A stretch of DNA of 53,874 nt, from contig JADFQV010000009.1 of assembly GCA_022561635.1 (NCBI GenBank), positions 1 through 53,874 on the forward strand, in the 5' to 3' direction. This DNA is from Chloroflexota bacterium (GTDB taxonomy: Bacteria > Chloroflexota > Dehalococcoidia > SM23-28-2 > RBG-16-64-32). How positions within the stretch are numbered: the first letter of the stretch is position 1; each line of letters starts with the position of its first letter. The notes under the pieces are model-generated. The model was not told the origin of the DNA, did not search any database, and saw only the letters and a list, made by a program, of their open reading frames with translations. The position numbers were made by a program, and so were the translations under genes. This document shows, one piece after another, positions 45,713-52,361 of this stretch.

Positions 45713-45746
45713 GTGGGCCTATCTCCGCAGGAAGGTGGTTCCCCCT

Positions 45747-46679
45747 ATGGCGACGCCGTACGCCTACTTTAAGAAAGAGATCGTCCCTCTATCCGAGGCG
45801 AAGATCGGCATCATGACGCACGCGTTCAACTATGGCACAGGCGTATTCGAGGGCATCCGCGGCAACTGGAACGAAGACGAGGACCAGATCTACGTCTTCC
45901 GCATCAAGGAGCACTTCGACCGGCTGCGCAAAAGCTGCAAGATCATGCAGATCGACTTCCAGTACGAGACGGAGGAACTGATCTCGCTAGTGACGAAGCT
46001 GGTGGAGATGTCCGACTACCACGAGGACGTCTACCTGCGGCCCCTGGCCTATAAAAGCGGCGAGGTGCTGGGCGTTCGGCTGCACGACCTGGAGGACGAC
46101 TTCCTGATCTTCATCGCCCCGTTCGGGCCCTACCTCGACATCGAGAAGGGCGCCCGCTGCCAAACCTCTAGCTGGCGGCGCGTGGCCGACACGGGCATCC
46201 CGGCGCGGGCCAAGATCACCGGCATCTACGCCAACTCCGCCCTCGCCAAGACCGAGGCCCAGCTCAACGGCTTCGACGAGGCGATCATGCTGGACGAGCG
46301 CGGCCACATCTCCGAAGGCTCCGGCGAGAACATCTTCGTCGTCATCGACGGCCGCATCATCACCCCGCCGCCCTCGTCCGACATCCTCGTCGGCATCACG
46401 CGGGACACGGTAATGACTCTGGCCCGTGACGAGCTCGGGCTGGAGGTCGTCGAGCGGGACATCGACCGCACGGAGGTATACACGGCCGACGAATGCTTCA
46501 TGACGGGAACGGCCGCGCACGTGACGCCTGTCGTCGAACTGGACCGGCGAGCGATCGGCAACGGTAAGATGGGCGCGGTGACCGCCGACCTCGTAAAGCT
46601 CTACTTCGAGATCATCACGGGCAAGAACGCCAAGTACGCTGACTGGTGCACCCCTTGCTACTCAAAGGTCAAGGCCTAA
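45747..46679 (+). CDS. ilvE: Branched-chain amino acid aminotransferase
   Basis: A 310-residue class IV PLP enzyme catalysing the last transamination of Ile, Leu and Val. HAFNYGTGVFEGIRG is the conserved opening, YLRPLAYKSGEVLG and the PLP-binding Lys segment GIYANSALAKTEAQL follow, and EAIMLDERGHISEGSGENIFV is the class-IV signature in two parts. CFMTGTAAHVTPV forms the phosphate-binding end. ATG at 45747 with GCAGGAAGG upstream; the open frame continues upstream into promoter sequence. Functionally linked to the ilvD-ilvB genes 5 kb away. Confidence 0.95.
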   Translation: MATPYAYFKKEIVPLSEAKIGIMTHAFNYGTGVFEGIRGNWNEDEDQIYVFRIKEHFDRLRKSCKIMQIDFQYETEELISLVTKLVEMSDYHEDVYLRPLAYKSGEVLGVRLHDLEDDFLIFIAPFGPYLDIEKGARCQTSSWRRVADTGIPARAKITGIYANSALAKTEAQLNGFDEAIMLDERGHISEGSGENIFVVIDGRIITPPPSSDILVGITRDTVMTLARDELGLEVVERDIDRTEVYTADECFMTGTAAHVTPVVELDRRAIGNGKMGAVTADLVKLYFEIITGKNAKYADWCTPCYSKVKA

Positions 46680-50336: not shown

Positions 50337-50366
50337 TTGACGAGCCGACTTATCAACACATACAAT
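50337..50366 (+). promoter_or_regulatory. Promoter of the T-box leader and ilvD operon
   Basis: TTGACG (50337-50342) and TACAAT (50361-50366) with 18-base spacing. The predicted start near 50373 lies about 30 bases before Stem I of the T-box, as expected. Confidence 0.75.
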
Positions 50367-50403
50367 TCGTTGCACGCCTGCTCTTAGCGGGTAGGCAAAA
50401 TAT

Positions 50404-50634
50404 CGGCTTCGATAGGGAGCTAGTAGCGGTAGTCGGCTCAAGAGAGCCGGGGTTAGGTGAGAGCCCGGTAGCGAAGACGCCGCGAAGTCGCCCTTGAGCC
50501 ACAGGGTCGAACCGGACCAGTAGGCCCCGTCGGGTGCGCCCGTTACAGCGTTCCGAGAGCCTCGATCTGATCGGGGAACAAGGGTGGTACCGCGAGACCT
50601 CAGTGTCCCGTCCCTTCCAGGGGACGGGATTTTT
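50404..50634 (+). ncRNA. T-box riboswitch, specifier GTC (Val)
   Basis: Stem I is legible: outer stem GGCT/AGCC, kink-turn, AGGG/CCCT, then a specifier bulge with loop-E AGTA (50422-50425) on one side and GAA (50484-50486) on the other, followed by triplet GTC at 50487-50489. Above it GCGG/CCGC, AGAGAG (50441-50446) and GGTGAGA follow. The T-box AGGGTGGTACCGCG is at 50581-50594. A terminator, CCCGTCCC/GGGACGGG (50607-50628), ends in TTTTT. Uncharged tRNA-Val should pair with GTC and the T-box and prevent termination. The triplet reading is my inference from the loop-E position; the class is certain. Confidence 0.92.
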
Positions 50635-50651
50635 AGTATAAGGACGAAGCG

Positions 50652-52361
50652 ATGGTCACAAATAACGCGCCGACTACGGAATCGAAGACCCGCCCGAGCG
50701 ACATCGTCTACCGGGCTGGATTCGCACGCGCACCGGCCCGCAGCTATATGCGCGCCATGGGCCTGACCGACGAGGACCTGGCGAAGCCGATCATCGGCGT
50801 CGTCAGCTCCTGGAACGAGGCCACGCCCTGCAACGTGCACCTCAACCGCCTCGCCGGCTGGGCCAAGGAAGGCGTGAGCGCCGGCGGCGGCACGCCACGC
50901 GAGTTCACCACGATCGCCGTGACCGACGGCATCGCGATGGGCTACGAAGGCATGAAGGCATCGCTCGTTAGCCGCGAGGTGATCGCCGACTCGATCGAAC
51001 TGATGGTCTTCGCCCACGGCTACGACGCGCTCGTCGGCGTCGCCGGCTGCGACAAGAGCCTGCCGGGGACGATCATGGCGATGGCGCGGCTGAACGTGCC
51101 CTCCGTGTTCGTTTACGGAGGCACGATCATGCCGGGCAGTTGGAACGGCAAGGACGTCACGATACAGGACGTCTTCGAGAGCGTCGGCGCCGTCGAGGCC
51201 GGGCGCATGACGGAGGCCGAGCAGAAAGAGTTGGAGAGCGTGGCCTGCCCGGGCGAAGGCTCGTGCGGCGGCATGTACACGGCGAATACCATGGCCTGCG
51301 CCAGCGAGGCGCTGGGCATAGCGCTGCCGTTCAGCGCTTCGATGCCCGCGATTGCCAGTGAGCGCACGGAGCTTTGCCGCTGGACCGGCAGCAGCGTGAT
51401 GTCGCTGCTGGAGCGCGACATCCGCCCGCGCGACATCCTGACCGCCGATGCGTTCGCGAACGCGGTCGCGGTCGTCGTCGCTATTGGCGGTTCGACGAAC
51501 GCCGCGCTGCACCTGCCAGCGATCGCCCACGAGGTCGGCATCGAGCTGACGCTGGACGACATCGACTCCATCGCCCGCCGCGTCCCGCACATCGCCGACA
51601 TGCGGCCTGGCGGACGATTCGTGCAGAGCGACCTGCACGCCGCCGGCGGCGCCCCGCGCGTGATGAAGGAACTGCTGGACGCCGGCCTCCTGCACGGCGA
51701 CTGTATCACCGTCACCGGCAAGACGCTGGCTGAGAACCTCAAAGACCTGGTCTTCGACGCGCCGCCCTCCGCCAACGGAGACGTCGTCGTGCCGGTGGAT
51801 AAGGCTCTCGAGCCCGTCGGTACGATGGTCGTGCTCAAGGGCAACCTGGCCCCGGAAGGCTCAGTGATGAAGACGAGCGGCATCAAGAAGACGCAGTACT
51901 CCGGACGGGCCCGCGTCTTCGACCGCGAAGAAGATGCCTTCGAGGCCGTCCGCCGCCGCGAGATTAAGGCCGGCGATGTCGTCGTCATCCGCCACGAGGG
52001 ACCGAAGGGCGGCCCCGGCATGCGCGAGATGCTCGCCGTTACGGCGGCGCTCTCCGGCCAGGGGATGGACGAAGACGTGGCGTTGATCACAGATGGGCGC
52101 TTCTCCGGCGCCACCCGCGGCTTCGCCGTCGGCCACATCTCGCCGGAGGCGGCCGTCGGTGGCCTGATCGCCGTCATCCAGGAAGGCGACACGATCAGCT
52201 TTGACATTCCCAACCGGAAAATACAGCTAGAGGTCGATGAAGAGGAGTTGAAGCGGCGTCTTAGCCAGTGGACCCCCCCGGAACCGAAGCACACGACGGG
52301 GGCCCTGGCCAAGTACGCCCGTCTCGTATCGTCCGCCGCCCGCGGAGCCGTCTGCAGCTAG
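50652..52361 (+). CDS. ilvD: Dihydroxy-acid dehydratase
   Basis: A 569-residue iron-sulfur dehydratase making 2-oxoisovalerate and 2-oxo-3-methylvalerate in Val and Ile synthesis. Cluster ligands are in [17 protein letters not shown] and [15 protein letters not shown] (Cys in each). [31 protein letters not shown] and [13 protein letters not shown] are the other family blocks; the last holds the active-site Ser region. ATG at 50652 with AAGGACGAAGC upstream. It is controlled by the T-box leader and followed 92 bases later by ilvB. Confidence 0.96.

Follow-up and report, generated by a model that had tools for sequence, protein, structure and literature searches.

A predicted valine-reading T-box leader of ilvD and ilvB in Dehalococcoidia points to recurrent switching from a leucine specifier

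We describe a leader upstream of ilvD and ilvB in a Chloroflexota bacterium (GenBank assembly GCA_022561635.1) that is very probably a class I transcriptional T-box sensing uncharged tRNA-Val(GAC), switched to this ligand from a leucine-reading ancestor. It lies on contig JADFQV010000009.1, of which positions 1 to 53,874 of the forward strand were analysed; this whole stretch of 53,874 nucleotides is called the window below. What adds interest is not the T-box itself, since the segment at 50400-50637 is, as judged by its sequence features, a complete class I transcriptional leader and ordinary in kind. It is the apparently recurrent change from Leu to Val, for which unswitched sister lineages are at hand.

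A search with Rfam cmscan matched the full T-box model RF00230 (model positions 1-219) with 113.7 bits and an E value of 1.9e-24, above the gathering score of 93, and the loop-E flanks and the GUC lie where the preliminary description of this DNA had placed them. The elements collected in Table 1, together with a CCGUUA region, correspond to the feature set of class I transcriptional T-boxes, whose distal AGAGA/GGUGA region contacts the tRNA elbow (PMC10482949). A UGGU at 50585-50588, the complement of a tRNA ACCA end, lies in the antiterminator bulge, and a single unpaired G at 50490 separates the GUC from the lower stem. AGCU precedes the AGUA motif, so that the 5' strand of the specifier loop is one base longer than in leucine-type relatives, an addition seen in this genus. 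The terminator fold has a predicted energy of -20.7 kcal/mol (z -4.6). Because antiterminator and terminator overlap, the two would be mutually exclusive, as judged by sequence and fold only. The leader had earlier been drawn to end at 50634, which falls inside the T tail of this terminator. The promoter scan yielded one site, with 0.2 expected. When Stem I was folded alone, the minimum-energy structure did not reproduce the canonical Stem I, a misfold that non-canonical motifs could explain. This fold and the extra base in the specifier loop speak against the reading.

Table 1. Predicted elements of the leader and the genes that follow it, in window coordinates.
Feature	Position	Strand	Basis and remarks
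Sigma-70-like promoter, TTGACG-18-TACAAT	50337..50366	+	consensus scan, 10/12 positions; consensus match only
T-box leader, full RF00230 model	50400..50618	+	cmscan
Lower specifier helix, 5' strand AGGG	50414..50417	+	pairs with 50491-50494; RF00230 alignment, flanking helices in 95 T-boxes
AGUA, 5' half of loop-E motif	50422..50425	+	sequence, comparison
Distal Stem I region, AGAGA + GGUGA	50440..50466 (approximate bounds)	+	alignment to Rfam consensus
GAA, 3' half of loop-E motif	50484..50486	+	sequence, comparison
Specifier codon GUC (Val)	50487..50489	+	register from ileS, leuS, thrS, trp and valS leaders; identical valS box
Lower specifier helix, 3' strand CCCU	50491..50494	+	RF00230 alignment, comparison
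Stem II with GAA...AGUA internal-loop motif	50501..50535 (approximate bounds)	+	RF00230 alignment
Antiterminator	50580..50616	+	AAGGG 50580-50584 pairs with CCCUU 50612-50616; RF00230 alignment, sequence
Intrinsic terminator, stem 50605-50630 + T run	50605..50637	+	11-bp stem; overlaps antiterminator 3' strand
ilvD, dihydroxy-acid dehydratase	50652..52361	+	TIGR00110, NF002068 above curated NCBIfam cut-off
ilvB, acetolactate synthase large subunit, truncated at contig end	52454..53872	+	TIGR00118 above cut-off

From this anatomy we infer how the leader binds tRNA and regulates in the cell. When valine runs short, the anticodon of uncharged tRNA-Val would pair with the GUC of Stem I, while the ACCA end of the same tRNA would pair with the UGGU of the antiterminator bulge. 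This pairing would prevent formation of the terminator, and ilvD and ilvB, probably along with ilvH, ilvC and leuA, would be transcribed. Once tRNA-Val is charged, the terminator would form.

The valine reading depends on the register of the specifier. Since a spacer base may follow the GAA in other T-boxes, the register of GUC had to be tested. The search covered 61 genomes, that of the window and others related to it at class level or more closely. It gave about 95 T-boxes; the genes that follow them were assigned by tblastn and the specifier loop of each T-box was read. In the window, GUC occupies the internal loop of Stem I that AGUA and GAA flank, and the register test covered 95 leaders. 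The trpB, trpE and trpS leaders of the class carry GAA-UGG (22/22) and the leuS operons, with or without a leading MgtC-family gene, GAA-CUC (13/13). The valS and thrS leaders show GUC (4/4) and ACC (7/7), and all 21 ileS leaders have GAA-N-AUC. Thus, in every assignable case among roughly 100 T-boxes of the class the specifier reading matches the controlled gene, and a single unpaired base separates the codon from the lower helix. The upper helix, formed by the four bases after AGUA and the four before GAA, paired in 335 of 380 cells, compared with 195 +/- 8 when partners were shuffled among loci. The default frame of TBDB, which takes bases 2-4 counted from where the specifier bulge ends, likewise yields GUC in the window (PMC7778990). 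In a scan for the exact valine box over 393 genomes of the class, the GAA-GUC-G-CC of the window was found to precede valS in a distant family, f19. Taken with the register, valS as the controlled gene argues that GUC is read as Val. The earlier placement of the specifier by the loop-E flanks holds.

A matching tRNA is present. The window's own genome encodes a tRNA-Val(GAC). Its anticodon is exactly complementary to GUC, and its 3' end, ACCA with A73, complements the UGGU of the antiterminator. Within the class, the base that follows UGG is U, with few exceptions, in the leaders for Ile, Leu and Val, A in Thr leaders and C in Trp leaders, with one UGGU exception among the latter; the discriminator position thus tracks specificity. 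Together with the register and the valS leaders, this tRNA supports the original proposal of a valine-specific T-box before ilvD-ilvB.

Valine nonetheless appears to be a derived, lineage-specific state at the ilvD locus, and leucine the usual one in relatives. All 18 other ilvD leaders carry CUC, as do 6 of the 8 leaders in which ilvB comes first. The preliminary description had held ilv T-boxes to be commonly of the Ile or Leu kind; its leucine part is borne out at this locus, while no mixture of Ile and Leu was found. Across the 393 genomes, the Leu-type pattern occurs in 69 and the Val-type pattern in 13, with 10 of its 13 distinct places being T-boxes. Three matches to the Val pattern (L145, L146 and L157) have no T-box and were set aside as chance matches. 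On ilv genes, GUC is limited to the window's genus (3/3 readable leaders) and to one distant genus of family f35 (L152 and L153). A fourth member of the window's genus, G003, was not counted, as its ilvD is a fragment at a contig edge and its specifier is unreadable. The ilvD of this locus (L281; G003:C207:1-4611), cut by the contig start, stands beside ilvB and is 47-70% identical to the ilvD of the genus; ilvB and what follows it have a typical appearance, and a misassembly or a replaced ilvD is possible.

On a tree of IlvB, drawn with a midpoint root for display only, the GUC label needs two changes between CUC and GUC, both forced by well-supported branches, and at both of them the nearest sisters carry CUC. 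From this nesting we infer the direction from Leu (CUC) to Val (GUC). The leader of the window would then descend from a leucine T-box through a C-to-G change at the first specifier position in this genus, and the pattern suggests a recurrent switch with two independent origins in the class.

The gene content of the operon does not account for the switch. The claim that the T-box controls ilvD-ilvB stands insofar as both genes lie directly downstream, but the operon probably extends further, to ilvH-ilvC-leuA, as in a relative of the same genus (G002) with the order ilvD-ilvB-(ilvH)-ilvC-leuA; ilvH was confirmed at the corresponding place in genome G001. In this member of the genus, the last gene of the operon is still a leucine gene, leuA, so that gene content alone would have predicted a leucine leader. 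Leu-type relatives within the window's own family have leuA as well, and other Leu-type relatives add genes resembling leuC, leuD, leuB and that of citramalate synthase (by sequence reading, no profile scan). In family f35, the Val-type operon and its Leu-type sisters contain the same set of genes. Operon content was thus ruled out as the cause of the switch, which would alter what is sensed and not which genes are controlled. Among named genomes, a search with IlvD gave only relatives of 51-61% identity, spread over many phyla. Outside the operon, a branched-chain aminotransferase gene, ilvE, lies at 45735-46679, some 4 kb ahead of the T-box, and has no T-box of its own.

It is possible, though improbable, that the leader serves as a dual sensor, in which GUC accepts tRNA-Val(GAC) as well as tRNA-Ile(GAU) through a G-U wobble at its first position. 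The anticodons of these two tRNAs differ at position 36 only, and in the window's own genome they agree in the acceptor stem, in almost all of the D arm and in A73, so that tRNA-Ile(GAU) could pair with GUC at the cost of this single wobble. Both ilvD and ilvB serve the valine and the isoleucine pathways, and a single T-box would then respond to the two amino acids made by the shared ilvD-ilvB-ilvC pathway. If this were true, the recurrent change from CUC to GUC would mark selection for sensing valine and isoleucine over leucine. Against it, the Ile leaders of the class always carry AUC with a different spacer, and the same GUC box is found at valS, where sensing isoleucine makes no sense. Strict Watson-Crick pairing of the specifier is, moreover, reportedly preferred by T-boxes (PMC7778990).

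Less probable still is that the C-to-G change simply broke the recognition of tRNA-Leu and left a decayed leucine leader without regulation. While the leucine codon of the relatives and the retained leuA would fit such a history, the helices, the UGGU and the terminator are all intact and the score exceeds the family cut-off. In addition, GUC is conserved in three species of the genus, and the same change is seen in another lineage, the sister genera of which have kept the Leu reading. A specifier displaced by one base, giving AGU or UCG and hence a serine T-box, has next to no probability. Its one point of support is the spacer base of the ileS leaders, which would yield UCG if applied to the window, but such a register would make serine T-boxes of every leuS and valS leader in the class, and the genes downstream are not serine genes. 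The three tRNA-Ser found in the window's own genome have G73, a base that could face UGGU only through a wobble pair. Both serine frames are ruled out by this G73 and by the leuS, valS, thrS, trp and ileS controls. A valine T-box that arose from a leucine one remains the reading that best accounts for the locus.

Compared with the type case of class I in RF00230, Bacillus subtilis tyrS, the leader of the window shares the long Stem I, the distal double T-loop motif, the specifier in an internal loop, Stem II and the antiterminator/terminator switch, and differs only in its specifier and in the genes served. The leucine T-boxes of ilv-leu operons in the same class (L014, L018, L082, L037, L042 and others), among whose lineages the IlvB tree places the window's genus, resemble it in architecture, loop-E flanks, spacing, UGGU and downstream ilvD or ilvB. 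They read CUC, lack the extra specifier-loop base, and several of their operons continue to leuC-leuD-leuB. The valS T-boxes of family f19 (L148-L151) have the identical box, with UGGU in three of the four and UGGC in L151, but control valyl-tRNA synthetase, not biosynthesis. A parallel case is that of the f35 leaders, where GUC heads an ilvB-ilvH-ilvC-leuA-leuC-leuD-leuB operon with CUC in close sisters, although its origin on the tree is independent.

Both the occurrence of T-boxes in Chloroflexi and shifts in their specificity through the specifier have been documented before (PMC2494555, PMC3766115). For the Chloroflexi sampled at the time, a 2008 survey lists T-boxes at ileS and trp genes only (PMC2494555), and GUC makes up 29% of the Val specifiers in TBDB (PMC7778990). 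We found no earlier valine-reading ilv T-box in a literature search that did not take in the main surveys of 2008-2009; this absence is accordingly weak evidence, and an earlier description elsewhere is possible.

Other T-boxes of the window's own genome precede ileS (AUC), an MgtC-leuS operon (CUC), trpS (UGG) and thrS (ACC), a set that would fit a member of the Chloroflexota, possibly of the Dehalococcoidia. No valS T-box was seen there; a candidate valS begins about 146 bases from a contig start, so that one may still be present. The thrS T-box has, in two families of the order, a tRNA-Val(GAC) gene in front of it that runs in the same direction and stops just a few bases short of the leader (L005 on contig C51 of the own genome, L038, L070, L073 and L092). 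The tRNA that the window's T-box is predicted to sense may thus share a transcript with another T-box leader. At four leucine T-boxes (L003 on contig C4 of the own genome, L083, L087 and L094), the leader is preceded at a distance of about 12 bases by the end of a tRNA-Ala(GGC) gene, and the T-box is followed by an MgtC/SapB-family gene and then leuS; a membrane protein gene within a leuS T-box operon was unexpected. Three ilvD leaders of family f2 (L035, L037 and L021, from G021, G015 and G019, respectively) combine one Stem I with two consecutive antiterminator-like modules about 88-90 nt apart, the first with UGGC and the second with UGGU, each followed by a terminator-like hairpin. By these sequence features, they are partial tandem T-boxes.

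T-boxes outside the Firmicutes have been little studied, and the class-wide table of specifiers gives consistent readings for the other T-boxes of this group. Leaders with CUC and GUC on the same operon in sister lineages, apparently switched twice, constitute natural near-matched pairs. They allow a test of whether a single-base change suffices for a T-box to pass from a tRNA with a long variable arm (Leu) to one with a short arm (Val), and they also address what benefit there may be in sensing valine instead of leucine for a shared pathway.
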